Assembly (NCBI GenBank): GCA_028285105.1 | Contig: JANQQE010000011.1 | Location: forward strand, 124,001-188,000 | Direction: 5' to 3' | Length of the DNA: 64,000 nucleotides | From: Alphaproteobacteria bacterium | GTDB lineage: Bacteria > Planctomycetota > Phycisphaerae > UBA1845 | Shown here: positions 8,236 through 27,821 of the stretch, piece after piece | Position numbering within the stretch: the first letter of the stretch is position 1 | How the letters are laid out: every line of letters begins with the position of its first letter | Made by a program: the position numbers and the translations under genes | Notes under the pieces: generated by a model | The model's database searches: none | What the model was told of the DNA's origin: nothing | What the model saw: only the letters and a program-made list of their open reading frames with translations

Positions 8236-11200
8236 ATGTTGAATTTGTTTAAGAACAATTCGGAGACGATTCACAATCGCGTAGGCGGGCTTTCAAAACT
8301 CTGCGCGGTTGCAGCCGTAACGATTAGCGCCAGCGTCTCGTTCGGCCAGATTGCGACTTCGTTGGTCAATGAGGGCGACGAAGTCGATTCCAATGGTTTC
8401 CCTGGAGACAACATTGGGACCATCAACAACGTTGCGGTCAACAACATCGGCGGGTGGGCGACAACGCTAAATGCCGGTACGACCAGTCATATTTATGGTT
8501 CCGTCGATGGAATCGCGCCGGCTGGCATCATCTTCAGTGAAACCACGGAAGGGCCATTGGTTCAGACAAGCTTTGAGTCACGGTTCGGTATCAGCGACTT
8601 TGGCGATGTTTGTTATAGCGCGTCAGGAAACGGTGGTCCGGATGGCGGGTTCGACTCGGCGTGGGTCAACACCATTGGTTTCGCAATTGAAGGTGCTGAA
8701 ATCACGACGGGGCCACTGGCTGGGTTGTTCTGGTCGTTCGCTTCAGCGCCAACGATGAATGCGAATGGGGTGGGATACTTCTCCGGTGGAACGCGCACAA
8801 CGGTGGGCGGTGGTACGTCAGCCCGCGGTCTGTGGGGGACCGACAGCGAGACCCCGATTCTTTATTCGGGCGATGAATTGCCGGGACTTCCAGCGCCGAT
8901 CGACGGGGGAAGCAGCATCGACTTCAGTTACAAGTTCTCGCGCTTTGGTAGTGCCTACATCCTTGATGGCATCATGGAAACGACCGGAACTGGTCTTCCG
9001 AGCGGCGAAGATCACGTCGTTATCATGGATGGCGCCGGACTATTTCTAGATGGTCAACTGGTTCAAGAGGGAATGATCGTTCCTGTGGCTATTGGCGGCG
9101 ACGGGGCAGAGGAGTGGGGGAGCGGTTTCGATTTCTTCGGCGTCAGCGACATGGGCGAGTATCTTTTTACCGGAGATACCACCGGAGACATATCCAGTGA
9201 CGAGTACCTGGTGTTGAATGGTGCAATTCATCTTCGAGAAGGTGACACGCTTGGCGTTGACACGCTCAGCGGAGCCATCGAAGCAGCTGACATGAATAAC
9301 AATGGTGACTGGGCTGTCGTCTGGCAGATTAGCGGTGTCGGCACATCACTGGTTTACAACGACCAGGTTCTGCTCCGACTTGACGAACAAGTTGACTTCA
9401 ATGGCGACGGCGTCATTGATGCGGGCGACAATGGCGCGACCGTCGATGACTTTGAAGTGTTTACGAATGCGTTGGCTGTTAGCGATCGCGATGCGTCTGG
9501 CAACGTTTCGATTTATCTTCCTCTCGATGTTGATCCCGATGGGCCGGGCGGTTCTTCGACACTTCAGGAAGGTGTCTATAAGATCACCGTGTCGGAACCG
9601 GCAGGTCCCTCTGGCGACCTGGAACTGGTTGTGGTTGACAGTCCGGATCCGCAGGTCAATGTTCCTGGCGATATCGCCTACGCAGTGAAAGTGCGAAACA
9701 ACAGCGATACGGCGATCACTGGCGTGACGGTCACCAGCAATCTCGACGGCGGGCTGACGTTCGATGCCGGTGCTTCCGATGCAATCGCCGTTCATGCTGC
9801 CGGAGTTGTCACTGCCAACCTTGGCACAATCGATGCCAATGCGGTACGCACGTACAAGTTCGTAGCCAATGCGGCGGTCGCTGGTGTTTACACCACAACG
9901 TCGAGCGTCACGGGCGGAGCCGTTGACAGTGTTCCCGGCAATAACGACGCGACAAACGAGACAGAAGTAGGCAAGAAAGCGGACGTTTCAATTCTGATTA
10001 CCGACAGTCCCGATCCGTTGACCGAACCGGGTGGCGCGATCGCATACACGCTGGATATTCTCAACGATGGTCCCTCCAGCGCAACCAACGTCGTCGTCAC
10101 AATGAACCTCGATCCGACAACGACCTTTAATGCCGGTCTGTCCGATCCGGCAGCCATTCATGCGGCTGGCGTGGTCACGATTAACGTGGGCACACTCGCG
10201 AACGACGAAGCGGCCAGTTTTGATGTGGTGGTCAATGTGACAGTGCAGGGTACGATCAGCGTTGACGCTTCAGTGGCAGCCACCGAATCAGATGAGGTTC
10301 CTGCGAACAACAGCGATGCGGAAGATACGCTGTTCCAGTTGACGACCGATCTGGTAATGACCATTTCAGATGCGCCCGATCCGGTGCTTCCTGTGGGCGG
10401 ACAGATCACTTACGACGTTTCGGTCGACAATGATGGTCCTTCCGACGCGACGGGCGTAACTGCCAGCGTCACGTTGGATGACAGCGTGATTGTTTCATCG
10501 GTCGATGCGCCGGGCGTGCATGACGGTTCGCCGTTTGGCGGTGTCGTGACATATGCGATTGGCAGTGTTCCGGCCAACAGCAACGGATTGACTGCGTCGA
10601 TTGTGGTTGATACGACCGAAGTTGGTCGGCCGGTCTGTACGGGTACGACTTCCGGTGGTGGATTTGAGACCGATCCCGACTTGGTCAATAACGATGCGTT
10701 GGTCAATACGTTGGTGATCGACGATGCAAGCGGACTGTCGGTTGGCATTTATTCGAACATTGCCAGCAGTCCAACATCGGATGTTCCAGGGTTGCCTGGC
10801 GCTAAGTTCGGTAGCGGTGTTGACCGTCCGTTCCGCAGCCCGGATGGCAAGTTGTGGGTACTCTCTGCCGACACCGATCTGGGAACAGCGGTTGACGAAG
10901 TCATCATCGTGGGCGACTTCTGCACGAGCGGTGTCCAAATTCAAGAAGGCACGACGACACTCGATCAGGGCGATCAGGTTGGTTTTATCGATCAGGATCT
11001 TTCCATCAACGATGCCGGCCTGTTTGCTTTTGCGACGAATACGAATAACTCTTCGTCTGCGGATGAGGTCATTGTTCGGTCAGATGGCTCAACGCATGTT
11101 GTGATTGCCCGCGAGGGCAGCATCTCGCCTGCGACGGGAGGTAACTACGGTTCCATTCTTGCAGCCGCCAACATTGTCTCTGACAACACGGTTTGGTTCG

Positions 11201-12393
11201 ATGCCGATACAACATTGTCTTCGGCGATGGACCGCTTCCTGCTGAGCAAGAACGGCGTGATTGTTGAAGCGCAGGAAGAGGTCACTGTGCCAACCGGTCA
11301 GGCGGGCGGCGGCACCGATCCGATCAAGGGATTCGTCACCGGAAGCATGCGGGTTGATGCGACTGGAAACAACTTCATTTACATTGGCGATACGAATGGC
11401 GACACCAGTACTGACGAGATGATTGTCGTCAATAATCAGGTCGTTGTGCAGGAAGGTTCAATCATCGCCGGTTCCGGTTTTGCTTCTCCGGCAGACATTG
11501 GTTTTGGCACGGAAGTCTTCATGTCAGCCGACGGTGGCTGGGTTGCACGCGGATCGAACTTTGACGGAAACGACTGGGTGCTTCGTGACGGTGGAGTCTT
11601 GTCTGCAACGGGTGATCCGATCGTTTCCGGAGCAGTGGAATCCTTTGACGATGCACCGTTCAGTGAGGGTTTCTTTATCGTCGCTCAAAACAACGCAGGC
11701 GATTACATCATTGGTTCGAGTACCAGCGCATCCGAGTCAGCGTCGAATTCGGTCCTTACTCTGAATGGCGAAGTTGTGATTGCCCGCGAAGGCGACCCGG
11801 TGGACCTCGACGGCAATGGGCTGGTTGATGACGGAATCCGTATCCGCTCATTCAGCGATGACGATTTGATCCTGACGGAAGACTTGCAGGCTTATGTCCC
11901 GGTCACGTTGCGCGATTTCAATGACGATGGTTCCAATTCGGACATTGGCGATGCGTTCATTCGCTTTAACCTGTGCGGTTTGGCGGGTCCATGCGGTGAT
12001 CTGGATAACGACAAAGATGTCGATGGCGACGACTACGACATCTTCGTCATGGCGTTTGGCACGACGACTTGCGATGCGTCGTACTCGGTATGTGCCGACT
12101 TCGATGAGGACGGCGTGGTGACGCATGTGGACTATCAGCAGTGGTTGCTTTGCTACCGTGACTTTGTCGGTAATCCGTTGGCATCCCCGCCAGTCACGAT
12201 CATGGGAGATTTCGATCGTGACGACGACGTTGACCTGAGCGACTTCGCTGAGTTCCAGACATGTGTGGGGGCGCAATCAGATAGCGTTCCTTGTCGTGCC
12301 CGCTTCGACTTCAATGAGGACAGTGTCGTAACGTTGCTCGATGCCGGCGGACTGACCGACGTGATGACCGGTCCTTCGGTTTCAAATAACTGA
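8236..12393 (+). CDS. Large secreted protein: NxxGxxAF-type repeats, three DUF11 domains, dockerin-like tail
   Basis: A 1385-residue exported protein. A signal peptide (about residues 1-37) has the hydrophobic run LCAVAAVTISASVSFG. Residues about 40-455 and 835-1250 contain repeated units with short NxxGxxxF motifs (NDAGLFAF, SDMGEYLF, NNAGDYII), each often followed by a DExxV..EG(D/S) pattern, as in a beta-propeller-like repeat. Between them are three DUF11 domains (about 460-580, 582-700, 704-830), each beginning D-x-x-DSPDP or DAPDP and ending near VPxNND. The last 130 residues hold two Asp-rich dockerin-like segments, including DNDKDVDGDD and DRDDDVDLSDF. GAGGG lies eight bases before the ATG. 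The function is unknown; a surface structural or adhesive role is plausible. It stands directly before the PEP-CTERM gene on the same strand. Confidence 0.85.
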   Translation: MLNLFKNNSETIHNRVGGLSKLCAVAAVTISASVSFGQIATSLVNEGDEVDSNGFPGDNIGTINNVAVNNIGGWATTLNAGTTSHIYGSVDGIAPAGIIFSETTEGPLVQTSFESRFGISDFGDVCYSASGNGGPDGGFDSAWVNTIGFAIEGAEITTGPLAGLFWSFASAPTMNANGVGYFSGGTRTTVGGGTSARGLWGTDSETPILYSGDELPGLPAPIDGGSSIDFSYKFSRFGSAYILDGIMETTGTGLPSGEDHVVIMDGAGLFLDGQLVQEGMIVPVAIGGDGAEEWGSGFDFFGVSDMGEYLFTGDTTGDISSDEYLVLNGAIHLREGDTLGVDTLSGAIEAADMNNNGDWAVVWQISGVGTSLVYNDQVLLRLDEQVDFNGDGVIDAGDNGATVDDFEVFTNALAVSDRDASGNVSIYLPLDVDPDGPGGSSTLQEGVYKITVSEPAGPSGDLELVVVDSPDPQVNVPGDIAYAVKVRNNSDTAITGVTVTSNLDGGLTFDAGASDAIAVHAAGVVTANLGTIDANAVRTYKFVANAAVAGVYTTTSSVTGGAVDSVPGNNDATNETEVGKKADVSILITDSPDPLTEPGGAIAYTLDILNDGPSSATNVVVTMNLDPTTTFNAGLSDPAAIHAAGVVTINVGTLANDEAASFDVVVNVTVQGTISVDASVAATESDEVPANNSDAEDTLFQLTTDLVMTISDAPDPVLPVGGQITYDVSVDNDGPSDATGVTASVTLDDSVIVSSVDAPGVHDGSPFGGVVTYAIGSVPANSNGLTASIVVDTTEVGRPVCTGTTSGGGFETDPDLVNNDALVNTLVIDDASGLSVGIYSNIASSPTSDVPGLPGAKFGSGVDRPFRSPDGKLWVLSADTDLGTAVDEVIIVGDFCTSGVQIQEGTTTLDQGDQVGFIDQDLSINDAGLFAFATNTNNSSSADEVIVRSDGSTHVVIAREGSISPATGGNYGSILAAANIVSDNTVWFDADTTLSSAMDRFLLSKNGVIVEAQEEVTVPTGQAGGGTDPIKGFVTGSMRVDATGNNFIYIGDTNGDTSTDEMIVVNNQVVVQEGSIIAGSGFASPADIGFGTEVFMSADGGWVARGSNFDGNDWVLRDGGVLSATGDPIVSGAVESFDDAPFSEGFFIVAQNNAGDYIIGSSTSASESASNSVLTLNGEVVIAREGDPVDLDGNGLVDDGIRIRSFSDDDLILTEDLQAYVPVTLRDFNDDGSNSDIGDAFIRFNLCGLAGPCGDLDNDKDVDGDDYDIFVMAFGTTTCDASYSVCADFDEDGVVTHVDYQQWLLCYRDFVGNPLASPPVTIMGDFDRDDDVDLSDFAEFQTCVGAQSDSVPCRARFDFNEDSVVTLLDAGGLTDVMTGPSVSNN

Positions 12394-12419
12394 TGTTGGG
12401 AAGATCATCCGTTTGCGAA

Positions 12420-12456
12420 GTTGCTCGCGCGCAGCCGACGCTGCGATGCGGGCAAC
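12420..12456 (+). repeat. Intercistronic hairpin
   Basis: CGCAGC (12430-12435) pairs with GCTGCG (12440-12445) around CGAC, and the outer GTTGC (12420-12424) pairs with GCAAC (12452-12456) with internal mismatches. There is no T-tract, so it is more likely an RNA-stabilising or processing element than a terminator. Confidence 0.4.
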
Positions 12457-12507
12457 ATTGCAGCGGACAATCGAGAAATTAAAACGTTGAGATGAGGAGA
12501 AAAGAAG

Positions 12508-13092
12508 ATGCTGCAACGACGTAAACCTGTTATGGGGGCGATGGCGACCGCAATGGTTGCTGGCGTCCTGCTGGGGCCAGCGCCTGCAGACGCTACGGTG
12601 GTCGTATCGCTTTCACCGGCAAACCAGGTCGTACCCCTCGTCGATGGGACTGCGACCGTGGATATTGTCGCGGTCATTCCAGAGGCTGACGCCATTGTCG
12701 GTTGGGGGTTGGACCTCGACCTTTTCGGCACGAGCGTGTCGGTGTCGGGTTCGGCAATCAACGAACCAACCTGGACGGCAGTGAGCGGTGTCGATGGCGA
12801 TGGTTTGGCTGGCTTGGTTCCGACGCCTCCCGGTACGGCGATTTGGAGCGACCCGGTGGCCATCGTGCTGGCGACAGTGACATTGTCGCTGGACGAACTG
12901 GGTACGACCGATTTGACGCTGAGCGACGACAATCCTGCCGATCTTTCGGAAGGCTTCGCGCTCGATCCGCCACCGGTTGGTGCATTTGCTGACGTCTCGT
13001 ATCAGCCCGGTTCGATTACTGTGATACCCGAACCTGCCTGCCTGATGCTGTTGATGCTGGGCGGGGCAGCTTGCGTGTCGCGCCGTCGCTAA
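12508..13092 (+). CDS. PEP-CTERM sorted protein with cohesin-like body
   Basis: A 194-residue exported protein with a signal peptide (about 1-30, ending PAPADA). A single domain of about 135 residues follows, then a textbook PEP-CTERM tail: VIPEP, a hydrophobic stretch LMLLMLGGAACV and the end SRRR. This tail is recognised by exosortase, which cuts it and leaves the protein at the surface or in the matrix. The body begins with VVSLSPANQVV and TATVDIVAVIPEA. It continues with IVLATVTLSL and ends SYQPGSITV. That layout resembles the cohesin beta-sandwich, including the final strand. The cohesin resemblance is by eye only. A ribosome binding site AGGAG is in place before the ATG. It is flanked by genes for dockerin-tailed proteins. 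Confidence 0.8.
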   Translation: MLQRRKPVMGAMATAMVAGVLLGPAPADATVVVSLSPANQVVPLVDGTATVDIVAVIPEADAIVGWGLDLDLFGTSVSVSGSAINEPTWTAVSGVDGDGLAGLVPTPPGTAIWSDPVAIVLATVTLSLDELGTTDLTLSDDNPADLSEGFALDPPPVGAFADVSYQPGSITVIPEPACLMLLMLGGAACVSRRR

Positions 13093-13465
13093 GCGGTGAT
13101 GTTGTATTTTTGCAGATTCGCTTGGCATTGATCGCGTCTAGTATGCGCGAAAGTTTTTTGGGTGACGTATGTTGATTTGCGAGCGTACCCATATGACATG
13201 CTGAACAACTTGCGGTGCCCGACGTGCCGATACACCTCGGTTGTCGGGCACTGCAACGATTGTTTCATCAATGACTCTCGCATCGCAGGAATCAGCGATA
13301 GGTTTCATTGTTTAGACACACTTGTTATTTGCCCACCGTTACGCATTCGCGGATTGTCATGCCAACGACAAACCGATTGATCACACTCGCTGGACGGAAT
13401 CACCATCACAACCTGAATCTGCGCCAAAAGTGCGTTGCGCGATTTCCCTGAGGAGTCAAATCGAC
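13093..13465 (+). other. Leader of the subtilase gene with a strong hairpin
   Basis: This 373-base gap has no convincing gene. GTGCCCGAC (13215-13223) and GTCGGGCAC (13243-13251) form a perfect stem that extends outward to 13211/13255 with one G-U pair. The loop can form an inner CCGA/TCGG stem. There is no T-tract. It may be a regulatory leader structure or an operator. A short frame through it has CxxC pairs but is probably fortuitous. Confidence 0.4.
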
Positions 13466-16400
13466 ATGCGGAATAAAGCAAATCGAACGTTCCAACGTAC
13501 AGTACTGTTGAGTACATTTGTCACAGGGTTCATCGCTGTCGGCGCTTCGGCAGGCGAGATTAAATGGCGTTCTGGAACATCTCGCTTGACGCAAGCCTCG
13601 GCACCGGAAACGGCGAACAAACTGGTAACGATGGTGCAGGCCCGCAGTGTGGAAGAAGCGACGCACGTTGTCGTGCAGTTTTCCAATCCGATCACCAAAA
13701 CGCAGAGAAACCAATTGCAGGCGGCTGGCGTTCGCTTGCTGAGTTATCTTGGCGACCATGCGTACTATGCCGTCGCGCAGCCGAATGCATTGGTTGAGCG
13801 AGACATCGCTCAGATCGCAACGTTGAGCAGCGTTACCGATGCTCAGCGTGATTGGAAGCTTCATCCGACATTTTTGCGAAATGAGTTGATGCCCTGGGCG
13901 GATGTGAACGGCGATCCAGCGATTTTTGAGAAAGACACTGAAGCCAAGGTGCGCATCGTCAGGCCCGAAGACGCCGACGCGATTCAGGTAACTGCCCACG
14001 TGTTGTTTCATCCCGACATCGATTTGGATCGGCAGGGGGCAGAAGTGTTGCGGCGGCATCGGGCTGTGATTGTGGGAACGATGCGAAGTGTCAACGGATA
14101 TTTGGTTGAACTACCCTATGCAGAAATTCCATCGCTCGCCGACGAGGATGCGGTACAGTATATCGAACCGCCGCTGCCCAGAATGTCCGAAGTCAACGAC
14201 AGCAACCGGGCCCGCACCGGATCGGACGTCGCCCAGGCAGTTCCCTATAACCTCAATGGTACAGGCGTGAAGGTGATGGTGTACGATGGGGGCAGTGCGC
14301 TCGCCAGCCATGCCGATTTCGGCGGCCGATTGGTCGCCCGTGATTCGTCAGGCCTGTCCGATCACGCCACGCACGTTTCCGGAACGATCGGAGGCGACGG
14401 TACGAACAGCGCCGGCACCAATCGCGGAATGGCCCCCGGCGTTACGATTGAGTCGTATGGATTCGAAACGGGCGGACCGTTGGAAGCCGGGTTCCTGTAC
14501 ACCAATCCCGGAGACCTGGAAGCCGACTATACCGAAGCGATCAACGTCTATGGCGTTGATATCTCGAACAACTCCATCGGTACCAATGTCGCCCCAAACG
14601 GTTTTCCCTGTGCGTGGGAAGGAGACTACAACGCGACGTCGGCGCTGATCGACGCGATCGTTGGCGGGAGTCTTGGTTCGCCGTTTCGCATCGTGTGGGC
14701 AGGCGGAAACGAACGCGGAAACGGTGGCTGCGGAGCCACCTACAACACCATCGCTCCACCTGCCGGCGCCAAGAACCATCTCTCGGTCGGGGCGCTGAAC
14801 AGCAATGACGATTCGGTGACGAACTTTACCGGGTGGGGGCCAACGGATGACGGCCGAATCAAACCCGACTTTGCTGCCCCCGGTTGCCAAACGGGTGGTG
14901 ACGGTGGGGTGACATCGTGTTCGAGCAGTGGTAACTACAACGTCAAATGCGGAACGTCGATGGCTTCACCGACGGTGTGCGGGATGGGCGCTCTCATTCT
15001 CGAAGATTTTCGTGCCAACAAACCGGGTGAACCGGACTTTCGTAATTCAACGCTCAAAGCTGTGCTGGCGCAAACAGCCGTCGATGTTGAGAATCCCGGA
15101 CCGGACTATCGAACGGGCTATGGATCGGTGCGCGTGGTTCCTGCGATCGATTTGATGCGGGCAGGCAACTTTCTGGAAGGCGAAGTCGAACAGGATCAGG
15201 TTGTTCAGGTCCTGGTCGTAGTCGATGCGCTGGATGCGCAGCTCAAAGTGACTTTGGCGTGGGACGATGTGCCGGGTACTCCGGCGGTCGATCCGACGTT
15301 GGTGAATGACCTCGACCTGCGGATCCTCGATGCCAACAGCAATGCGTATCTGCCGTGGACGCTCAATCCGGCTGTCCCGGCGAACAATGCGGTCAAGACG
15401 CAAGCCGATCATACCAACAACATCGAGCAGGTGGTCATCGATGCCCCGCCGCCGGGTGAGTATTTCGTGCAGATCACCGGCTTTAACATTCCGCAGGGGC
15501 CGCAGTCCTTTTCGCTGGCGGCTGAACCGCTGCTGATCAATTGCAGTCCACAGGGCGTGATTCGATTCGATCAGGAAAGCTACAATTGCGACAGTACCGC
15601 GACGATTTCGCTCAACGACTGCGACGTGAATACGAATGATCTGGAAATTGAAACGATCAATATCGTCGTTGTGTCCGACACCGAACCGGGTGGCGAAGTC
15701 ATTACCCTGACCGAAACCAGCTCGCAGTCAGCGAACTTCATCAGTACGGTTCCGTTAGCAATCACCGATGCGGCAGGGGTATTGCACATTGCAGAGGGCG
15801 ACTCGATTACGGCGAGCTACCTCGATGCGGATGACGGTTTTGGCAACACGAATGTTCTGGCTGAAGAGTCCGTCGGGATCGATTGCACTGCGCCGGTCAT
15901 AAGTGCCGTGTCGGCTGTCGATATTGATCCGCGAAGCGCGCGAATCGTATTCAACACAGACGAACCAGCCGTTGGCGTGGTGCGTTACGGAACCGATTGC
16001 GACGATCTGGTCAATGAGGTGGCGGCGATTGGGCTGAATACGTCGCACAGCATTGACATCGAAGGCCTTACCGATGACACGATGTATTTTTACGGCGCCG
16101 AAGCGACCGACCCAGCCGTCAACGTGGCGTTCGATACCAACGGGGCGGCTTGCTACAGCTTTACAACGCCGGAAATCCCCGACTACTTTACGGAAGACTT
16201 TTTGGCTGACTTCGATCTTGGCAACAGTGCGATATTGTATGCACCGAATGGCAGCGTCGATTTCTATAGTTCCTGTACCTTCGAAACATTGGTACTCCCG
16301 ACCGATCCTGCTGGGGGTACGCCGGTGGTTGTTTCAGATACGGGTTCGGTGGAGGTCAATCTTACAGATGGGGCGCAGGTGCATTTGTATGGTGTCTCAT

Positions 16401-19400
16401 ACAACACGGTTTACATCAATGCCAACGGAAACATCACGCTGGTCGGGCCGGACGACGATACGACCGAGACCTTCGATGAACATTTCGATCAACCTCGGAT
16501 ATCATTGTTGTATGACGATCTCGATCCGAGCGAAGGCGGCACGCTAAGCTACAAGCAACTCGCCGATCGTTTCGTCGTTACATGGCAGGACATTTCCGAA
16601 GATGGTGTTAACAACGACAACACGTTTCAGGTTGAATTGTATTACGACGGTCGCGTGCAACTTGCATGGCTGGGCATCGAGGCGAATGACGGCATCGTTG
16701 GGTTGTCGGCTGGTGGCGGTGTACCCGTCGACTTTTTCGAGTCCGATCTTTCAGCCGTCGGCGACTGCGGTCCACGTCCACCATCTGCGGCTGGGCGAAC
16801 GGTTATCGTTGGAGAAAGTCGAACGGCTGACATCGAACTTCTCGCCAGCGACGACGGGCTGCCTGAAATCCCCGGTGCAGTGAGTTATATCATATTGTCG
16901 CTGCCAAGCTACGAACTTCGCGATGCGGGCAACAATCACATCATCTTGCCCGGCGATCTGCCATACAAATTGGTCGGAGGTGGCAATGCCTTGATGTATA
17001 CGCCGACCAATGGTTTCCTCGGTCTCGATACGTTTGACTTCAAAGCAAATGACGGCGGGTCGCCACCGGATGCGGGTGACTCCAACACGGCGACGGTCAC
17101 GGTGCAGGTCGATCCGGTGTTGCAAGTACCTATCTTCGATTCGTTTCCGACGACCGAGTTCGATACCGGATTCTGGTCGGTCGTGTCGCTGGCTGGCATC
17201 GACGACGAGGGAATTGACGAACCGTCGCAACCGTACTCGGCGCGACTGAATGGATCGCCGGCAGGCGGTGACGAATTGCAAACGCACCTTGTCGATTTGA
17301 GCGGTGTCGGCGACGCTCGGTTGGTGTACTGGTTTGAGCGCACCGGCGATGGCGAAAGTCCGGACTCCGGAGACAACTTGCGGGTCGATTACGTGGATAG
17401 CAATGGCAGTTGGCAGTCGCTTCGCGAGTATGCTGGCGATGGCAACGACATGACCAGTTACCAGCGAGAAGACATCTTGCTTCCGTCCGCCGCATTGCAT
17501 GACAGTTTCCGTGCGCGTTTCAGAACGACCGGCACAGCGAGTGCCAACAATATCGACGATTGGTTCATGGACAACGTTTCGGTAACCCGTGGCGATGCGC
17601 CATTTGCCAATGACGTGTTCACTGAAGTGCGACAGGACGATACGGTTGACATTGCATTGGACGGTTCGGACCCGAATCTTGACATACTCGACTTTGTGAT
17701 CGTGTCGTTACCAGTTGGAGGCACGCTCAGCGATCCCAACGGTGGTGCGATCGAATCCCTCGATTTGCCGTATTCGCTCATGGGCAATCAAAACGTAGTG
17801 CGGTATCAGCGATCTGGTACTTTCCTCGGTCTGGATGCGTTTGCCTTCAGGGTCAACGATGGTACGTACGATTCGTTCGATGCGACGGTGAGCGTCGAGG
17901 TTCAGCCGCTGATCGAACTACCATTCGAGGATTCGTTCCCTGACTTCGTGTTCGATGCCCTGAAATGGGGCGATATCCTCGGTGCAACGATTGACGGCAA
18001 CGGTATCAACGAGCCAAGCCCGCCGAATTCCGCACGCCTAAATGGCAGTTCCTCGGTCGGTGACGAGTTGGTTTCGTTTCCGGTCAACCTCGAATCGCAG
18101 AGCGGTATTCGGTTGCGATATGCGTGGCAGCGGACCGGAGATGAGAATTCGCCTGAGGCCGGAGACGATTTGTTCTTCGACTACCTCGATACGAATGGTG
18201 TGTGGCAGAACTTCACGCAGCATCTCGGTGACGGTCCGGACATGACCGACTATGACGTGTCGGATGAATTGCTGCCGGCAGATGCGCTTCACGGAAATTT
18301 CCAACTGCGCATCCGCGTTTCCAGCAATGCCGGTGACGACTGGTTCGTCGATGACGTTAAGATCTATCATCCCGATGCGCCCACCGCCACGAGCCTCAGT
18401 ATTCTGGTCCGGCGATTCGGGTGGGCTGTGATCGATCTGGTTGCCAGCGACCCGACCGAAGACCCGTTGGACTATGCGATTCTGTCGCTTCCGGAGCAGG
18501 GCGAGTTGTACGACACGGGCGATGGTTCGCTAATCGCACCCGGCGCGCTGCCGCATGTGTTGTCTGGCGGTGGGAATCAAGTGCTTTATGCACCGCCGCT
18601 TGGGTATGAAGGCCATGAACAATTTACCTTCCGAGCCAATGACGGTGTGTTCGATTCGACACTGGGAATCATCTCGCTTCAGATCGGCGGACAGCAGCCG
18701 GTGCTGGACTTCCCACTCGATGTCGATCCGGGCTGGTCGACGGAGGGTCTTTGGGCATTCGGCGTACCGCAGGGCATTGATTTCGATCCGTTTTCCGGCG
18801 CGACCGGTACGAATGTTTACGGATACAACCTTGCTGGCAAATACGAAAGCAACCTGTCTCCGACGCATCTGACCACGCCGACGTTCGATCTGTCGTCGGT
18901 TCAAAATGCCGAGCTGCGATTTCAACGGTGGCTTGGCGTTGAAAGCAACTTCTTCGACCATGCGGCGATTGAGATTTCGGTGAATGGTATCGATTGGAAC
19001 GTTGTGTGGGAGCATACGGAAGTCGCGGGCATTTTCGATCGTGCGTGGATCCCACAAAGCATCGACATTTCGGGGGCGGCAGACGGTCAGTCGAACGTGC
19101 AACTTCGCTGGGTGATGGGCGCGACCGACGGTTCAGGTGAATTTGAAGGCTGGAGCATCGACGACATTCAGATATTCGGAGATGTCGTCGCAAGTCCGGG
19201 CGACATCGATACCGATGGCGATGTCGATGGTGCTGACCTGCGAGCGTTTGTCGCGTGCTTGGACGGACCCAATGCGTCGCCCGCACCACCATCGCCGATG
19301 CTCACGCAGGATTGTCTGGATGCATTCGATTTCGATGACGACAACGACATAGATCTGGCCGATTTCGAATCGTTCATCGAAGTGTATACGGGCAATTCAT

Positions 19401-19402: not shown

Positions 19403-19438
19403 GACTGAAACCTTGCCCGACTCAGGGGATTCACAAAA

Positions 19439-19469
19439 ATGGCGGTTGCGCGCAAGTCGCAACCGCCAT
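19439..19469. terminator. Hairpin terminator between convergent genes
   Basis: ATGGCGGTTGCG (19439-19450) pairs perfectly with CGCAACCGCCAT (19458-19469). On the minus strand it is followed by a run of T (TTTTTG), so it terminates the carboxypeptidase transcript and probably works in both directions. Confidence 0.8.
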
Positions 19470-19490
19470 GTTCGATTTCATGAAAGCATG

Positions 19491-21788
19491 TTACTCAGCC
19501 GCAGATTGAAACTGGGCAAAGTCGATCAAGTCCACATGGTTGTTATCATCGAAGTCCAGAATCGAGCATCCCGGAGGCGTCGAATCGACCGGTCCCTGCA
19601 CGCAATCTGGGAAAGCGGCTGCATCGCCGGCACTGACGATTGAATCGCCGTTGTAGTCACCCTTGGTCGCAACGCAGCCCTTCGAAAACAACACGATATC
19701 GTCGATATTCCAGCCCGGCAACGTATTCGAGCCGTCGGTCGCCCCCATTCCCCAACGCACATACACAGTCGGTTGATCGTCGGCAACGCTGGAAATGTCG
19801 AACGATTGCGGCGTCCATTCGGTATCGGTTTCGAAAATATTGTCGCTGATGTGATCGGCAGCGGCGGAATACACCTGTGTCCACTCCGTACCGTTGTTGC
19901 TGACCGAGACCGTTGCATCGTCGAAACCGAAAGCCGATTCGACCCCAAGCCATCGCCAGAATCGAAGTTCGACATCGAACTGTCCCGTACAGTCGATTGC
20001 TGTCGTCGTTAAATAGGTCGCCGGCAAGTTGTTGGTGTAATTGCCGTTCAGGTTATAGCCATAAACGTTGGCGCCCGTGTTGCCACTTGTCGGATCGCCG
20101 TTAAAGCTTCCACCGCCCGTTGGCACTCCCCACTCCCAATCGCCTTCCGTTGTCCAACCGGGATCGGTGTCGAGGTCTTCCTGATAGAACGGACCCACAG
20201 CCACCGGTGGATTGAACGGACCCAGTTCTGCCGGCGGGGGCAACGTCGAAACCGTACCCTGGTTGCTGTCTGCTGCGAAGTAGAACTCGGGAGTGGACGT
20301 GCAGTTGGTTGCGGGCAGCGTCGTTTCGTATCCATTGCTGCTGATCTGCGTCAGCATTACTTCGTTGTAAGGACTACTTGGATCGAAGCGATAGTACATC
20401 CGAGCCGTTCCCGCCGTGTAGTCTTCGTATTGCGAATTCACGGTAAGTTGCATTGGAAGATCGACGCCCGGAACAAGCACCTCAGGGATATCGGTTTCCA
20501 GGTCAATGATGACCGGAGAGCGCACGAAGTCGGTATTCGTCAGGTACAAGAGTGCGGGCGTGATCTCTTCGTTATTCGGTATGATTTCTTCAGGGTCCAG
20601 AATAAAGCCGGAACCGAACGGACCCGTTTCCGGACGCAACTCGAAACTGTATGCCAAAATGCCCAGTTGCGCATAAGCCCAATCGAGCGAATCGCCGTTG
20701 ACAGGATAGATCGTTTCGTTGATCGGGCCCGCATCGTAAGTCAATCCGTGGACGTTGAAGATGATATCCTGCATCGCAAGTCCATGTTCTCTGAAGAGAG
20801 CGTCATCCGGGCACAGGTCGGGAATGTATCCCCACGGCCAAAGAATGAGTTGTGTGAAACTGTGAATGTCCATCATCGTTCGGATATTTGGTTGGTTCAG
20901 CATCAAATCGCGCAAGGCAACGGTCTCGGGTTCGGAAAAAGGAAACGGTCCGCGGAATATGGAACTGCTGCCACTGCCGCTTGATCCGTCGTCGTCATAA
21001 CCCCAAGCTTCCCCCCAGTTGCGGTTGATGTCGACGCCGATGGTTCCGTTGGAGTTGATCGTGCGGGTCTTGCGCCAGAGACGATCATCGCTCCACGTGA
21101 ATGCAAACCCGTCGGGGTTGGCAACGGGGACGAGGAATATCTCTGTCTTGTTGACCATGTCGGTGACGATCGGGTCGGTTCCGTAATTCTCAAGAACATG
21201 CTTTGCGAAATAGGTGGGTGTTGTCGTCGTGACCCATTCGCGAGAATGCACGCAGGAGAAATACAATGCGCCTGGCTTGTTTCCTGGAAACGCATCGTTT
21301 GCCAATCGCAGGGCCCAGATGGTGCGACCCTCGCGGCTGGTCCCGATGTCGATCATCGAGGCGAGATTTGGGTAGCGGGTGACCAATTCGTTCATGAACC
21401 AGACAATGCTGCCAACCCCATTGTCGTACTCGTGATAGTCGAGGAAGAAATCGTTATAAGGATCGCCACCGCGAAGGGGGCTTGGTTGTCGTTCGGCGTC
21501 GAAAAGGGCTTGGGCGTTCTCGTGTTTGATGACTGTCGTGACGCCCATGGCCCGTATCGCGACGAGTTGTTCTTCGCTGGCAACGACGTCGAGGCTTCCT
21601 GGCGATGGGGCGCAATCAAGAACGACCGCCCCGGTGGCTTCAATGGCGGAAATCTGCTCGCGCGAAACGTCGTTGATATGAACAAAGCGATGGTTGCGAT
21701 ATTTGTCGGTTGCGCCGGCGCGTACATGGTCAGTCATGGCGCAAGTGGAAACCGCAATCACCAAGACGAAGCGCATCTTTCCAGACAT
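19491..21788 (-). CDS. Secreted zinc carboxypeptidase (family M14) with jelly-roll and dockerin-like tail
   Basis: A 765-residue exported metallocarboxypeptidase. It has a signal peptide (about 1-25), a propeptide-like region (about 30-110) and the M14 catalytic domain (about 115-430). Zinc ligands are His181 and Glu184 in HSREW and His309 in MMDIHSF; the catalytic Glu383 is in SFELRPETG. Substrate-carboxylate residues lie in VDINRNW. A fibronectin-like part follows, then a jelly-roll (about 545-700) with DPGWTTEGDWEWGVP. The final dockerin-like segment has DYNGDSIVSAGD and DDNNHVDLIDF. GGAG seven bases before the ATG supports the start. It would remove C-terminal residues from extracellular peptides, complementing the nearby subtilase with which it converges. 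Confidence 0.93.
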   Translation of the reverse strand: MSGKMRFVLVIAVSTCAMTDHVRAGATDKYRNHRFVHINDVSREQISAIEATGAVVLDCAPSPGSLDVVASEEQLVAIRAMGVTTVIKHENAQALFDAERQPSPLRGGDPYNDFFLDYHEYDNGVGSIVWFMNELVTRYPNLASMIDIGTSREGRTIWALRLANDAFPGNKPGALYFSCVHSREWVTTTTPTYFAKHVLENYGTDPIVTDMVNKTEIFLVPVANPDGFAFTWSDDRLWRKTRTINSNGTIGVDINRNWGEAWGYDDDGSSGSGSSSIFRGPFPFSEPETVALRDLMLNQPNIRTMMDIHSFTQLILWPWGYIPDLCPDDALFREHGLAMQDIIFNVHGLTYDAGPINETIYPVNGDSLDWAYAQLGILAYSFELRPETGPFGSGFILDPEEIIPNNEEITPALLYLTNTDFVRSPVIIDLETDIPEVLVPGVDLPMQLTVNSQYEDYTAGTARMYYRFDPSSPYNEVMLTQISSNGYETTLPATNCTSTPEFYFAADSNQGTVSTLPPPAELGPFNPPVAVGPFYQEDLDTDPGWTTEGDWEWGVPTGGGSFNGDPTSGNTGANVYGYNLNGNYTNNLPATYLTTTAIDCTGQFDVELRFWRWLGVESAFGFDDATVSVSNNGTEWTQVYSAAADHISDNIFETDTEWTPQSFDISSVADDQPTVYVRWGMGATDGSNTLPGWNIDDIVLFSKGCVATKGDYNGDSIVSAGDAAAFPDCVQGPVDSTPPGCSILDFDDNNHVDLIDFAQFQSAAE

Positions 21789-21961
21789 GATTAATCTCCG
21801 TACTCGTTCTTGTTCGACTGGCGTGATGAGCCAGTCTGCATGCGAATATTTTGCAGCCTCTGAATTGTAATCGATGAAGTCGGGTGAACGCCACCGCTTA
21901 TAGCGCGGTCTGAAACGGTGTGATTTGGGGATTGATACGAAGTAAGGGCAGCGCAGGATGG

Positions 21962-22747
21962 TTAATTCTGGCTCGTTGCGACCTCTTCGACTTGCGCGTC
22001 TGGATTGGCTTGATCGTGTGGCATGGATTGATCTTGGGGGCTGGATTGATCGTGTTGGTTGGGTTGATCTTTGGGGTCTGACCGATCTGGCGGGTTGGAT
22101 TCATCTTGATTCGGCTGGGATGTGCCATCAAGGTTGAGGGCAAGTCTGACAAGTTCGAGGCAAGCCTGAATTTCGTCTGAACCGGCTTCGTTGATGATCA
22201 TTTGTCGAAGTTCATCAATGACCGTCAGTGCCTGCTCGACAGGACCGGCTTCGTGGGCCAGATTGACAGCATATCGCTCGTATTGGGTGGTTTGCTGTGC
22301 CTGAAGCGTCTGAAGTGGCGGCGGGGGATGTGCGTCTTCCGGGGTGTCGTCGAACCAAGTCAAGTCGATCGGTGAATCGAAATTTACGCCAGCAAAGTGA
22401 ACGTGACCCCAAACATTCTTGCAGTGCGCGATGGTACCATCAATGCTCAGGAGTTCGCCATCGACTGTTGTAAGGTGAAGCCGGCAGCGCGTCGATGCGT
22501 GAACATAACTGCCTGTAAAGAAGCCGATTCCACCTTCACTTAAATCGTATGATCGGACGACATACTTCGCGGTTGTTCCGCCTGGTTGAGCAATGTCCAC
22601 TGCCATCCGCATGAAGTTCGTTCGACGCCGAGACCAGCGTCTCTTCGCATCGGAATCGCGCAACTCCTTCGAAACGATCACGGCAAGTTCGCGATCCGTC
22701 ATTCGGAGCGTGTCTAAGTATTTTCGATCTTCAGCTTTATATGACAT
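21962..22747 (-). CDS. PilZ-domain protein (c-di-GMP binding) with hexapeptide-repeat tail
   Basis: A 261-residue cytoplasmic protein. The PilZ domain covers about residues 35-130, with the Arg-rich switch RRWSRRRTNF and the binding motif DLSEGGIGF, which together bind c-di-GMP. A helical part (about 150-210) follows. The last 50 residues are a tandem hexapeptide repeat of P-x-D-Q type, encoded by 18-base repeats. PilZ proteins transmit c-di-GMP level to motility, adhesion or secretion; here it lies near chemotaxis genes and exported proteins. The target is unknown. The 173 bases upstream of the carboxypeptidase start contain nothing recognised. Confidence 0.88.
   Translation of the reverse strand: MSYKAEDRKYLDTLRMTDRELAVIVSKELRDSDAKRRWSRRRTNFMRMAVDIAQPGGTTAKYVVRSYDLSEGGIGFFTGSYVHASTRCRLHLTTVDGELLSIDGTIAHCKNVWGHVHFAGVNFDSPIDLTWFDDTPEDAHPPPPLQTLQAQQTTQYERYAVNLAHEAGPVEQALTVIDELRQMIINEAGSDEIQACLELVRLALNLDGTSQPNQDESNPPDRSDPKDQPNQHDQSSPQDQSMPHDQANPDAQVEEVATSQN
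22007..22114 (-). repeat. 18-bp tandem repeat in the PilZ gene
   Basis: Six consecutive 18-base units with consensus near GGATTGATCTTGGGGGCT. They encode the hexapeptides NQDESN, PPDRSD, PKDQPN, QHDQSS, PQDQSM and PHDQAN. Because units are multiples of three, copy number can change without a frameshift. Confidence 0.85.
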
Positions 22748-23593
22748 TTTCAGCGGCCCTTAGGGGTTGAATCGGACCAGCCGTATTTTCAGATTAGATG
22801 AACGTGTTTGGGAACGAAAAAAACTGGCATTTGTATACACCCGCACTGCATCCGTTCAGGAATAATTAAGGCCGCACTTTGGGCCAATTGCGAGTGAGGG
22901 GGTAGGTGCATAGAAGTATGGTGGCGATAATCCATGCGTTCCGAGAGCCGAAAACGCATTTGTCTTAGCACGATTGGTGAGGCGAGTGTGTCTTAGAATT
23001 GATCCGACATCGGTTCGAGGCCTTGCATTTTGATATGGGCAAAATACCCCATCCTTGAAATGGGCCAGCATCTCGACGACCGTCGAATTGCGATGAAGGC
23101 GCCTACAACGACTACCAGAAGACAACATCGGCATGGTTCTAACGTCGCAATCGCCGAACTCAGCAAGACGATTGTTCAAAGACTGCTGAATTCTTGGTCG
23201 AGAATTCACTGAATTCAAGATCGTCTGCGCCCGTACACTCCGATAACGATTCGGCTAAATGGCGGTTCCCTTTATTCTTATGGGCGGACGCCAAACTTGA
23301 GCAATACCCAAGCGGTTTGGACGAATTAATTCTAATCACACCTCCGTCGCGTACCGAAAGATCACTTAACCAGAACAAGAATTCGCACGTCTGAAATCGT
23401 ATGTCAGTGGAATTGTGATAACGAAGTTCAAACGCGCGTCGCATTCTGGAATACGGTTGATTGAGATTTGACGCAGCGACCGTCAACAAGAATTCGATAC
23501 GTCGGCTGTCATTTGAGTAGGCGCCTTGGTTCGATGAGATTTACATTCGTTCGCGTCGTCATCGGGTTGTGGCAAGAAACCTTGGAATCGCGG
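22748..23593. other. Gene-poor region of about 850 bases
   Basis: Only short, unconvincing open frames are present, none with a good ribosome binding site or a recognisable family. Several GAATTC sites cluster around 23188-23217. It separates the divergent PilZ and chemoreceptor genes, so both promoters should lie here. Confidence 0.5.
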
Positions 23594-23609
23594 TGGCTCG
23601 GCCGTTGCC
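23594..23609 (+). promoter_or_regulatory. Candidate sigma-54 promoter of the chemoreceptor gene
   Basis: TGGCTC-GGCCG-TTGCC matches the -24/-12 consensus TGGCAC-N5-TTGC at all but one core position, with the GG and GC dinucleotides exactly ten bases apart. Transcription would start near 23620, about 20 bases before the ATG. No activator site was identified. Confidence 0.4.
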
Positions 23610-23640
23610 AGTTCACCCACTAGTGCAAAGAGAGAGATCA

Positions 23641-25479
23641 ATGGCGAGACAAACCAAGACCACAAAAAAGTCGGTGAACAAGAGCAGCAACTCGGGCAAG
23701 ATGTTCCAGAGAATGGTCGAAGACACGCCGGCCAACATCATCTTGGCCGACAAAGACTTCAACATCACCTACGTCAATCCGGCGACCATCAAGAACCTGA
23801 CGCCCCTCGCGCATTTGCTGCCGATCCCGATCGAGGCTTTGGTGGGGACCAACATCGACGCATTCCACAAGGATCCGGCGCATCAGCGGCGAATTTTGAG
23901 CAATCCCAGCAATCTTCCATACAAAGCTCCGATCCAGCTTGGCGACCGGAAGTTGGAACTCATGGTGAATGCTGTTTACGACGAGAAGGGCGATGTTGCC
24001 GGGACGATGGTCACCTGGGACTTTATCGATGCTGAAAAGATTCGACTCGAAGAGTTGGCACAAGACAATGCGGGAAAACTCGCAGCAATCGGCCGTGCGC
24101 AAGCCGTCATCGAATTCGACCTCGACGGCACCATTCGCGAGGCCAACGACAACTTCGTCAACGCCTTGGGATACACGCACGATGAAATCAAGGGCCGTCA
24201 CCACAGCATGTTCGTTGAAGACTCACATCGGCAAAGCCACGAATACACCGAGTTGTGGGCGTCGTTGAATCGTGGTGAATTTAGAGCAGGTGAATTCAAA
24301 CGCATTGCCAAGGGCGGCAAAGAGATTTGGATACAGGCTTCTTACAACCCGATTCTCGACCTCGAAGGTAAGCCGGTCAAGGTCGTCAAATATGCCACTG
24401 ACGTCACTGCGCAAGTGATCGCCCGCGACGAAATCGGGAATCTGATCAAGACCGCGCTTGATGGCGACCTCACTGCGAGCGCAGACACGTCACGCCTCGA
24501 AGGCGAATTCCACGACATGGTGGAAAATGTCAACAAACTGGTTTCCAAACTTTGCGATACCATGCTTCAGGTTTCAAGTGCCGTTGAACAAATCGACGAC
24601 GGTGCATCGCAGGTGACGGGATCGAGCCAGCAGTTGTCCGAAGGTGCCAGCGAGCAAGCCGCATCTCTTGAAGAAACATCGTCATCGCTTGAAGAGATGG
24701 CCGCCATGACCCGCACCAACGCAAGCAACGCAGCACAGGTCAACGATTTGTCCGGATCGGCACGCGACGCGGCAAACGAAGGCGATCAGACCATGGGCCA
24801 ACTCAATCAGGCCATGTCGGATATCAATGCGTCATCCGAGAAAATCAGCAAGATCATCAAGGTTATCGAAGAGATTGCGTTCCAGACCAACCTGCTTGCT
24901 CTTAACGCAGCCGTCGAAGCGGCTCGTGCGGGTGAACATGGTAAGGGATTCGCCGTCGTCGCCGACGAGGTTCGCAATCTAGCTCAGCGAGCAGCCCAGG
25001 CGGCTGGCGAAACAACCAGTCTGATCGACGAGTCGGTCAAGAAAGCTCAGGAAGGTACGACCGTCGCAACAAGTGTGGGCCAAGCCCTGACGTCGATCGT
25101 CGAGCAGATCAACAAGGTATCGGATCTCGTAGACGGCATCTCGAAAGCTTCTGATGAGCAGGCCCAAGGCGTCGATCAGGTCAACACTGCCGTTACGCAG
25201 ATGAACACCGTAACGCAGCAGAATGCGGCTGGTTCTGAAGAATTGGCTGCGGCGGCTGAAGAAATGTCGTCACAAGTCGCATGCCTGCGAGAGATGATCG
25301 GACAATACAAGTTGGCAGAGGGTGGAACCAGTCAAAGCGCTCAAGGTTTCGCCGGTCAGAAGTTTGCCAATCAATCACGAATGACACAATCGCCTGGGCG
25401 ACAGCCGGTCGGGGCTGGCGCTGGTGCGAGCGACAGCGATTTCTTACCCATGGGGGACGATGACCTGTCGTCATTCTAA
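23641..25479 (+). CDS. Soluble PAS-PAS methyl-accepting chemotaxis protein
   Basis: A 612-residue cytoplasmic chemoreceptor with no membrane segments. The first PAS domain is about residues 20-130, with [13 protein letters not shown]. The second is about 150-260, with [14 protein letters not shown] and [13 protein letters not shown] helical linker follows (about 260-330). The signalling domain (about 340-560) contains the conserved hairpin tip [21 protein letters not shown] and [17 protein letters not shown]. Methylation-helix regions flank it. The ATG at 23641 is chosen over an upstream one because GAGAG precedes it and the N-terminus [10 protein letters not shown] is hydrophilic. It sits before cheW. 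It would sense an internal signal such as redox or a small ligand and control CheA through CheW. The cofactor of the PAS domains is unknown. Confidence 0.95.
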
Positions 25480-25518
25480 TCGCGTTGACCGAATCAGTAT
25501 CTCGGTATCAACGTGTCG

Positions 25519-25570
25519 TCAATCGCCCCCCGGGTTCCGCAGATTCATGCGAGCCTGTGGGGGCGATTGA
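25519..25570 (+). repeat. Strong intercistronic hairpin between mcp and cheW
   Basis: TCAATCGCCCCC (25519-25530) pairs perfectly with GGGGGCGATTGA (25559-25570). Inside, GGTT/AGCC and CGCA/TGCG can add eight further pairs around a six-base loop. There is no T-tract, so it is more likely an RNA-stability or differential-expression element than a plain terminator. Confidence 0.6.
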
Positions 25571-25633
25571 ATGTTTGGCCGACCCCTGTATGTAGGCCGC
25601 ATCAAAAATCGCTTAAGACGAGGTTACCGCAGC

Positions 25634-26131
25634 ATGGGCGCAACAGCATCAGAGTCAACGCAATCAAATTCAAATCAAGCGAGTCATTCGAAGGACTTGG
25701 GAGGGAAGTATCTCACGTTTCGATTGGCGGGCGAATTTTATGGCGTCGAGATTCGCAAAGTCAGTGAGATCAATGGAATCGTTGACATCACCTCCATTCC
25801 GCGCTCGCTCGATTTCATGAAAGGCGTTATCAATCTTCGCGGTAAAATTATTCCCGTCATCGATCTACGCATGCGGTTGGGAATGCAAGAAGCCGAACAC
25901 ACTGACGAAACCTGCATAATCGTTGTCAATGTCGCGCGAGAGGTCGGACTTGTGGTTGACAGTGTTTCCGAGGTCCTCGACATAGACGGCGATCTCATCA
26001 ATCCCGCCCCTTCAATGGGCAGCAGTGCCTCTCGATCGTACATCCTCGGGATCGCAAAAGTCGAAGAAACCATGAAGATTCTTCTTGATATCGATCTGGT
26101 TCTCGCTGAGGGCGCCAACATGGAAGCATGA
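25634..26131 (+). CDS. cheW: CheW chemotaxis adaptor
   Basis: A 165-residue adaptor that couples chemoreceptors to the kinase CheA. After a polar N-terminal tail (about 25 residues) the CheW domain has KYLTFRLAGEFYGVEI, VRKVSEIN-type strand, FMKGVINLRGKIIPVIDLR and GLVVDSVSEVL. These are the typical conserved blocks. The ATG at 25634 is taken because an upstream ATG adds unrelated residues; GAGG lies about ten bases ahead. It follows the soluble chemoreceptor, with a hairpin in the gap. No cheA, cheB or cheR is in this window. Confidence 0.93.
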   Translation: MGATASESTQSNSNQASHSKDLGGKYLTFRLAGEFYGVEIRKVSEINGIVDITSIPRSLDFMKGVINLRGKIIPVIDLRMRLGMQEAEHTDETCIIVVNVAREVGLVVDSVSEVLDIDGDLINPAPSMGSSASRSYILGIAKVEETMKILLDIDLVLAEGANMEA

Positions 26132-26192
26132 CTTCGAGTCGATTTGGCTTCGTAATCCCCACAATAGCGTCATCGCAGATTGCTCGTAATGC

Positions 26193-27545
26193 TTACGGGA
26201 CGAGCCTCTCTGCGAATTCTACGAAGTCGGCCAGGTCAACGTCGCTACCGCCGTCAAAGTCGAACGCTTCAATACAATTGGCTTGTGTGACGCCCGGCAG
26301 CAAGGGGTTCGGGGCAATTCCAGGACCGTTGGCACAGTCCGCGAAGTATTCAAAATCGTTCAAGTCTACGTCACCGTCGCAATCCCAATCGCCCAAACAT
26401 GGAAGTGGCGGATCGATCAGATATCGCAAGATGTCAGGCATTCGAATTGCCCAGTAGAACTCGTTGTGCATGTGGTTTTGAGCCTCGACGGATAGAAGAT
26501 CATTACCTTCGACAAACCCCTGTCCAATTGCAATGTCACGCATTGCCCGCAGATTGGCGATTCCCGATTCAGCCGTACCCATGTCCTGGTAAAAACGACT
26601 CAATTCGTCGGGTTTCGACGCGGTGACTGCATGGCTGAGTATTTGTTGGCCTGACCACCAATAGGATGGGGATACGCCCGCGATCCGACCCCAGACATCA
26701 TCGTATTCGTAACCAGCGTAGACCGAGATCAAACCGCCCAGCGACGAACCGGCCATGTAGGTTTTCGCGTGACCCGATTGGGTGCGGTAGCGCAGATTGA
26801 CTTCTGGAATCAGAATATCCCGGATGGCTTGAAGGTATCCATCGCCACCGCCACCGCATCCGAATGCGTTGTCGGCCCACGGGGTGTATTCGTCACATCG
26901 TGAACTGCTGTTTTCGACACCGACCACGATGATCGGTTCGATCTCGCGGTTGCCAATGAGCGATTCGCAAGCTTCGTCCACCTGCCATTCGCCCGCAAAG
27001 CTGGTCGCCTCATCGAAGAGGTTCTGTCCGTCATGCATGTACAGTACGGGGTAGCTGTCGGAACTCTCGAAGTAATCGGGCGGCAGGTAGACCCAGCAGC
27101 GGCGACCACCCAAAAAGGGAGCGAACACAAACGACTCGACGTGGCCGGTGATTGTCGATGGCTGAATGTCAGCCCAGTTTGCAACGACGTGGTTGATGGT
27201 CTCGGTGCCCTGAGGCGTGTGTACGCGGTTGGGGATTTCCTCACCGGTCGATCCCTTCTCAACCGTCTGCCAACTTCCTCGTGTGAACTTGTACTGAATG
27301 GGTATGGCGTCTGGCAGGCTGAGCGTGATTTCCCAGGAACCATCTGTCTGCTCCGTGAGCGCGTAAGCGGGATCGCCCGGGTTCCAGCTTTGAAAGTCGC
27401 CTGCTATGTAGATCAAGTCCCCCGATGGTGTGGAATCGGGAACTTCCACTCGAATGGTAATCGTCGCACCTATAGCAATTTCAGTGACAAAAAAGAAAGT
27501 CATGAAGGACGCAATAACAAAGGGGAAGGACACGGAACGGCGCAT
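26193..27545 (-). CDS. Secreted esterase with N-terminal carbohydrate-binding-like domain and dockerin-like tail
   Basis: A 450-residue exported hydrolase. A signal peptide (1-27) is followed by an Ig-like domain (about 28-125) resembling CBM20/CBM48 starch-binding modules, with YIAGDFQSWNPGDP. The esterase domain (about 130-380) belongs to the enterochelin-esterase / esterase D group. It has YMHDGQNLFD, nucleophile Ser268 in GSSLGG and probable catalytic His360 in HNEFYW. The final 65 residues are a dockerin-like tail with DWDCDGDVDLNDF and GGSDVDLADF. The start has GGAG seven bases upstream. It may remove acyl groups from polysaccharides or other esters outside the cell; the substrate is inference. 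It faces cheW tail to tail. Confidence 0.9.
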   Translation of the reverse strand: MRRSVSFPFVIASFMTFFFVTEIAIGATITIRVEVPDSTPSGDLIYIAGDFQSWNPGDPAYALTEQTDGSWEITLSLPDAIPIQYKFTRGSWQTVEKGSTGEEIPNRVHTPQGTETINHVVANWADIQPSTITGHVESFVFAPFLGGRRCWVYLPPDYFESSDSYPVLYMHDGQNLFDEATSFAGEWQVDEACESLIGNREIEPIIVVGVENSSSRCDEYTPWADNAFGCGGGGDGYLQAIRDILIPEVNLRYRTQSGHAKTYMAGSSLGGLISVYAGYEYDDVWGRIAGVSPSYWWSGQQILSHAVTASKPDELSRFYQDMGTAESGIANLRAMRDIAIGQGFVEGNDLLSVEAQNHMHNEFYWAIRMPDILRYLIDPPLPCLGDWDCDGDVDLNDFEYFADCANGPGIAPNPLLPGVTQANCIEAFDFDGGSDVDLADFVEFAERLVP

Positions 27546-27821
27546 GATCGAACTCCGATTCAAATGGTACTGACCGATGGACCCAAGAATTATAGCACAC
27601 GTAGCCGCAAATGCAGTTGTACAGGTGGTTGCAGGGTGTTGATTACGGATCATTGGATGAGCCCTTCACCGGTGCGATTCGTCGAGAAGTTTGCAACGAT
27701 GCAGGAAGTGGTTGGGGAGAAGCCAAGACGACTACTCGGGCTTTTTGCCGGGAATCCAATCAAGGAGCCGTGAAACGCACCCTGCATTTTCATGCAAAAG
27801 ACAAGATCGAACGGCTGCTGG
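27546..27821. other. Gap between esterase and carbonic anhydrase genes
   Basis: No convincing gene. It must hold the esterase promoter (minus strand). The carbonic anhydrase promoter is annotated just after it. Confidence 0.4.

Follow-up and report, generated by a model that had tools for sequence, protein, structure and literature searches.

Does a small cohesin-like protein, encoded among secreted proteins with dockerin-like tails, hold all of these neighbors at the cell surface, or is it dedicated to one of them? The question is raised by a 64,000-nucleotide stretch of contig JANQQE010000011.1 (positions 124,001 to 188,000; hereafter the window) from a Phycisphaerae genome of 4.8 Mb over 36 contigs, whose genes we name by their lowest coordinate in the window. 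A first-pass annotation read the 12508 protein as a cohesin-like body with an exosortase tail and the 8236, 13466, 19491, and 26193 proteins as its dockerin-bearing company. It pictured a surface-docked, non-cellulosomal degradation complex and suggested looking for an exosortase gene and further cohesin-like PEP-CTERM genes elsewhere in the genome. Our analysis favors a narrower arrangement, to which we assign a probability of roughly 0.68: 12508 would be an exosortase-sorted surface anchor with one cohesin, and the co-encoded 8236 protein its client, bound through the first (Doc-A) of two C-terminal dockerins.

The case for a cohesin begins with the predicted structure. An AlphaFold2 (AF2) model of 12508, built with nineteen natural sequences as input, reached a predicted local distance difference test score (pLDDT) of 86.8 and a predicted template modeling score of 0.85. 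Foldseek returned 34 PDB matches at E ≤ 0.001, every one a cohesin or cohesin-bearing entry. In VIA-align, the top match had a Z score of 13.1 over 129 residues at 2.6 Å, and cohesins filled the first 47 rows. The cohesin-like body proposed at first pass is therefore borne out as a predicted fold. Its closest homologues lie in the Phycisphaerae metagenome-assembled genomes (MAGs) OFTM112, UBA1845, and 8_bin.52, on the contigs of genomes listed as same-genus.

The exosortase tail was likewise recovered, with the C terminus scoring 17.0 bits against TIGR02595 (cut-off 16). The Pfam PEP-CTERM model gave 17.8 bits with the single protein, below its cut-off of 20.7, and 21.9 bits in a genome scan; the signal peptide was assigned by inspection. 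One exosortase gene (PF09721) exceeds the Pfam cut-off genome-wide, at 184.5 bits, and it sits in a polysaccharide cluster of contig C7, alongside an aminotransferase, a nucleotide-sugar decarboxylase/epimerase, and a UDP-glucose dehydrogenase (neighbors read by eye). Together, these results support 12508 as a cohesin by predicted fold that is putatively surface-sorted by its PEP-CTERM. As for further genes of this kind, a second family member exists on contig C35, but none of the remaining PEP-CTERM proteins of the genome is related by sequence to the cohesin profile (top probability, 3.5%). By eye, a 229-residue PEP-CTERM protein ending near C33:58414 (L125, C33:52000-63000) looks cohesin-like; it has a probability below 1% against the 12508-family profile. 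At two loci in other genomes, L034 (G014:C86) and L038 (G045:C106), the cohesin-family domain is N-terminal in Cys-rich repeat proteins (frames of 810 and 925 residues), the repeats replacing the PEP-CTERM.

The tails of the four flanking proteins carry ten 12-residue EF-type loops, which form five pairs (two of them in 8236) and match the paired Asp-rich segments described earlier. Dockerin_1 (PF00404) scores the window tails below its cut-off and scores those of the second cassette and several relatives above it. A model of the 8236 tandem (pLDDT 90.5) shows a helix after each loop, and both residues 1-63 (Doc-A) and the following Doc-B match dockerins. Foldseek placed a double dockerin first and returned nearly all dockerin-bearing chains, with non-dockerin chains near the bottom, at weak scores (best Foldseek E 0.011, best Z 7.4). 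We consider "dockerin" a fitting name because these fold matches are joined by the above-cut-off Dockerin_1 matches in relatives and the second cassette. Doc-A aligned mostly with type II dockerins and Doc-B mostly with type I in the VIA rows, a split that is given no weight because all Z scores lie below 8.

Proximity alone is a poor guide to partnership in this genome. At least 142 dockerin-like domains are present (E ≤ 0.01; 150 of 233 candidates scored), and 20-kb stretches elsewhere carry four to five dockerin genes. The nearness of the tails to 12508 therefore means little by itself, and the 20-kb cluster was rejected as special in its own right. The window tails, however, fall into two subtypes, Doc-A and a general type. 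The three enzyme tails are not Doc-A, and the general type numbers more than 100 in the genome. NCBIfam NF041540 matches 9 of 17 Doc-A domains weakly (best E 1e-4).

The link between 12508 and its upstream gene is far beyond this background. Both members of the 12508 family in the genome lie directly 3' of a long secreted protein with two terminal dockerin pairs, and the two strong Doc-A domains are each directly upstream of a family member. A Doc-A model from which this genome was left out gave the cassette dockerins ~91 bits (8236; 89.7-91) and 73 bits, and the next of the fetched dockerin loci 32; a genome-wide scan with a model including both cassette dockerins gave the same gap. As a control, of the genome's remaining 33 PEP-CTERM genes, 4 have a dockerin gene within ~450 nucleotides (nt) upstream. 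Those four genes, on C6, C13, C27, and C34 (L121, L117, L118, and L119), follow dockerin-tailed genes and are not cohesin-like in sequence; they are possible further receptor/client pairs.

Related genomes extend the pattern. The 26-row family alignment was too varied for the collection scan, so a 9-row alignment was used instead. There were 63 cohesin hits across 100 related genomes. A same-strand Doc-A lies just upstream of 45 of them, a distance of 450 nt from the domain being exceeded only once, and three further hits have a weaker upstream Doc-A. When the contigs that fed the Doc-A model are set aside, the count is 28 of 46, and we prefer such independent counts because the Doc-A rows were chosen for lying beside cohesins. 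Both domains occur in 29 of the 100 genomes, cohesin only in 7, Doc-A only in 7, and neither in 57 (Fisher p 3e-12, uncorrected for phylogeny). A shallow search of ~390 other genomes of the phylum, in which 8 and 16 candidates were scored per genome, found nothing with the cohesin model and only Doc-A matches below 50 bits, in three genomes. Cohesin and Doc-A distances are correlated (r 0.73). The observed value was not reached in any of 2000 re-pairings within genomes (mean 0.57, maximum 0.731).

The conserved cassette element across relatives is the first dockerin, Doc-A, whose two EF loops are both conserved and mostly 33 residues apart, with the Doc-A and cohesin genes separated by ~40-210 nt. 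The upstream protein of about eleven cassettes has no dockerin other than Doc-A, and the general type is therefore not what tracks the cohesin. The Doc-A/cohesin pair stays constant while the client bodies change, from DUF11 in the window to S8 in the C35 cassette and its orthologues, and P-domain, GEVED, or PKD, with TSP3-like repeats seen by eye. The C35 client is a 2164-residue S8 subtilase with two dockerin pairs and the cohesin-family gene downstream. Doc-A genes with no paired cohesin, found elsewhere, encode S8, P-domain, Kelch, or FG-GAP bodies, which fits docking in trans. Orthologues of 8236 lie directly upstream of a cohesin at five loci (L040, L041, L042, L045, and L048). Within the genus, the gene order 8236, 12508, S8 protease is conserved at 75-86% identity over most segments, and it recurs at 43-56% identity in two genomes of another family (G059/G069; L045/L048), in which the S8 homologue itself bears a Doc-A-like dockerin. 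Two MAGs labeled Myxococcota and Thermoleophilia likewise retain the pair, with binning errors possible there.

Several observations weigh against this account. Pfam Cohesin (PF00963) matches neither 12508, nor the 26 family members, nor anything in the genome, and the 12508-family profile reached the ScaC cohesin among PDB sequences only weakly (E 0.43); we treat a PF00963 match as a detection aid for cohesins rather than as their defining trait. No upstream Doc-A was scored for 18 of the 63 cohesin hits, some of them at contig ends, and examples in G010, G068, G082, and G092 have enough flank yet lack one. Conversely, seven genomes have a strong Doc-A and no detected cohesin, and Doc-A domains outnumber cohesins in several. 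Operon inheritance alone can yield a distance correlation without binding. Finally, the Doc-A proteins of the two MAGs labeled outside Planctomycetota end in a sorting-like CGLLG(V/I)E...RRRR tail of their own (L056 5085-5360, L057 227-511), which is at odds with a simple division into anchor and client.

Our proposed mechanism rests on the predicted folds, the sorting tail, the exosortase gene, gene order, the subtype link, co-occurrence, and co-inheritance. The 12508 protein would be exported through its signal peptide, after which an exosortase would recognize the PEP-CTERM tail and leave the cohesin either at the surface of the cell or within the exopolysaccharide matrix. There the cohesin would bind Doc-A of the 8236 protein, presumably with calcium, and the proposed client would thereby be held at the surface. 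The two genes would form a docking cassette with an exchangeable client body, and the C35 cassette would do likewise for its subtilase. Having a single cohesin, 12508 would accommodate no more than one client at once and cannot serve as a scaffold. The client probably takes part in adhesion or in the turnover of extracellular proteins or polymers. More speculatively, the arrangement may be the first tier of two throughout the order: exosortase-sorted single cohesins would hold Doc-A proteins, many of which bear a second, general-type dockerin that would plug, with the >100 general-type tails, into a different receptor set. Proteins of the 8236 type would then be adaptors to a pool of secreted enzymes in a non-cellulosomal surface machine. 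We regard this extension as doubtful.

Three other explanations were weighed. The Doc-A/cohesin contact could join two surface proteins, or cap or protect the client during export, in which case PEP-CTERM sorting would deposit both proteins in the polysaccharide matrix, where they would form a structural or adhesive layer. Repeat or adhesive domains (DUF11, PKD, beta-helix, FG-GAP, TSP3-like), and not enzymes, make up many of the client bodies, the exosortase lies within a polysaccharide cluster, and the sorting-like tails in the two MAGs seem to sit on the Doc-A protein itself. In most genomes, however, the anchor signal is on the cohesin protein and none is on the client, and we judge this alternative unlikely. 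Slightly less probable again is the idea that 12508 is the receptor for all four tails, assembling the degradation complex envisaged at first pass. It draws on four secreted proteins with EF-hand tails within 20 kb, on the synteny that both the S8 gene and the M14 gene show with the cassette within the genus, and on the S8 proteins of the C35 cassette, G059, and G069, which bear Doc-A. The latter two genomes lend plausibility to the theme of a protease as client. In the window, the tails of all three enzymes (S8, M14, and esterase) are nonetheless of the general type, so abundant in this genome, and both the cassettes whose upstream protein has Doc-A alone and the single cohesin, which allows a single client, argue against it. 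The parts of the original proposal that find support are the cohesin fold of 12508, the dockerin fold of the modeled 8236 tandem, and PEP-CTERM surface sorting in a non-cellulosomal setting; one receptor serving all four tails as a single degradation complex is not supported. Function does not follow from shared fold, and so dockerin binding might have been lost from a real cohesin fold and gene order, leaving a linked relic or proteins that act apart, but subtype-specific co-occurrence over genomes despite changing client bodies, together with conservation of both EF loops, makes this very improbable.

The anchor/client arrangement that we favor can be set beside several known systems. As with OlpA of Clostridium thermocellum and ScaE of Ruminococcus flavefaciens, a cell-tied single cohesin would hold a dockerin protein, and the fold of 12508 matches cellulosomal cohesins. 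Anchors of the OlpA/ScaE type attach by S-layer homology (SLH) domains or sortase. Here, in contrast, the signal is that of an exosortase, and the genome has no Pfam Cohesin match. By Pfam the genome has no multi-cohesin scaffoldin and only two single-cohesin members of the 12508 family were found, although Pfam misses this family and a diverged array could escape it. The "planctosome" hypothesis describes non-cellulosomal cohesin/dockerin modules in the freshwater Planctomycetes lineage Nemodlikiaceae and proposes peptidases, M14 carboxypeptidases among them, as the clients (PMC6461901). Its anchor, of 2,210 residues, carries a lamin-tail domain; an adaptor that combines cohesin with dockerin is also part of the scheme, and exosortase is unmentioned (PMC6461901). 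The likeness lies in non-cellulosomal cohesin/dockerin modules in Planctomycetes and in M14 peptidases, with P-domains also found in clients here; the difference is that here a 194-residue protein carries one cohesin and a PEP-CTERM tail and is paired with a dockerin subtype in a cassette of two genes.

The sorting half of the proposal corresponds to the PEP-CTERM/exosortase system (PMC1569441), with which it shares a signal peptide, a C-terminal PEP-CTERM, and an exosortase in a polysaccharide locus, but here the cargo has a cohesin fold and is partnered with a dockerin protein. The GC-type dockerin domain-anchored proteins of NF041540 are weakly like Doc-A, and that family names a tail, not a receptor. 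Archaea of the anaerobic methanotrophic (ANME) groups have many dockerin/cohesin proteins outside cellulose use, including scaffoldin-like proteins with several cohesins (PMC9012536, PMC5244752). These are archaeal, multi-cohesin proteins, and the available portions of the two papers describe no cassette of the present kind.

More than 100 dockerin-like tails in this Phycisphaerae genome have had no known receptor, and one subtype now has a specific, testable candidate partner. The arrangement would join exosortase sorting to cohesin-dockerin docking, and no paper in the literature searched combines PEP-CTERM with cohesin or dockerin. It suggests a dedicated plug-and-socket that holds secreted proteins on the cell, outside cellulose-degrading machinery. 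The cassettes also offer a compact natural set for pairing rules, with two in this genome and at least six Doc-A/cohesin cassettes in the relative G072 (L239-L245), whose tails are very similar (VPGDLDxDxDVDLxDYNxFLAAYGS...).

Features of the cassette and its flanks are collected in Table 1, in which all of the genes described are open reading frames at the positions listed.

Table 1. Features of the cohesin locus (window coordinates).
Feature	Position	Strand	Remarks
Large secreted protein, 1385 aa (amino acids)	8236..12393	+	Three DUF11 repeats and NxxGxxAF-type repeats; two dockerin pairs at the end
Doc-A, first dockerin of the 8236 protein	11992..12180	+	CGDLDxDxDVDxxDYxxF...ADFDxDGxVTxVDYQxWLxCYRDF; loop spacing 33 residues
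Doc-B (general type), second dockerin of the 8236 protein	12202..12375	+	By alignment; AF2 model residues 67-127 dockerin-like
Shine-Dalgarno-like GAGGAG	12494..12499	+	8 nt 5' of the 12508 ATG
Cohesin-fold (predicted) PEP-CTERM protein, 194 aa	12508..13092	+	Signal peptide ~1-28, one cohesin ~29-173, PEP-CTERM 173-194
Terminator-like hairpins 3' of the cohesin gene, weak	13081..13150	+	Region has 9 sites vs 6.3 +/- 3.0 in shuffles
Secreted S8 subtilase, 1978 aa	13466..19402	+	General-type dockerin tail 19196-19399
Secreted M14 carboxypeptidase, 765 aa	19491..21788	-	General-type dockerin tail 19494-19664
Secreted esterase, CBM20-like N-domain	26193..27653	-	General-type dockerin tail 26196-26396

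The three enzymes agree with the protease, carboxypeptidase, and esterase named at first pass. No counterpart of the esterase gene turned up in the flanks of orthologous cassettes, which end near its expected place. No terminator-like sites were found in the gap between 12393 and 12508. The 8236 and 12508 genes share a reading frame, and a single read-through protein was considered and rejected, as the interval between them contains two TGA stops as well as a distinct ribosome site. Beside the C35 cassette (L116 1473-6795), a gene for a 1468-residue protein ending in GIDVDCSATCGP is followed by a PEP-CTERM gene, and this arrangement is kept in the genus (L051, L055).

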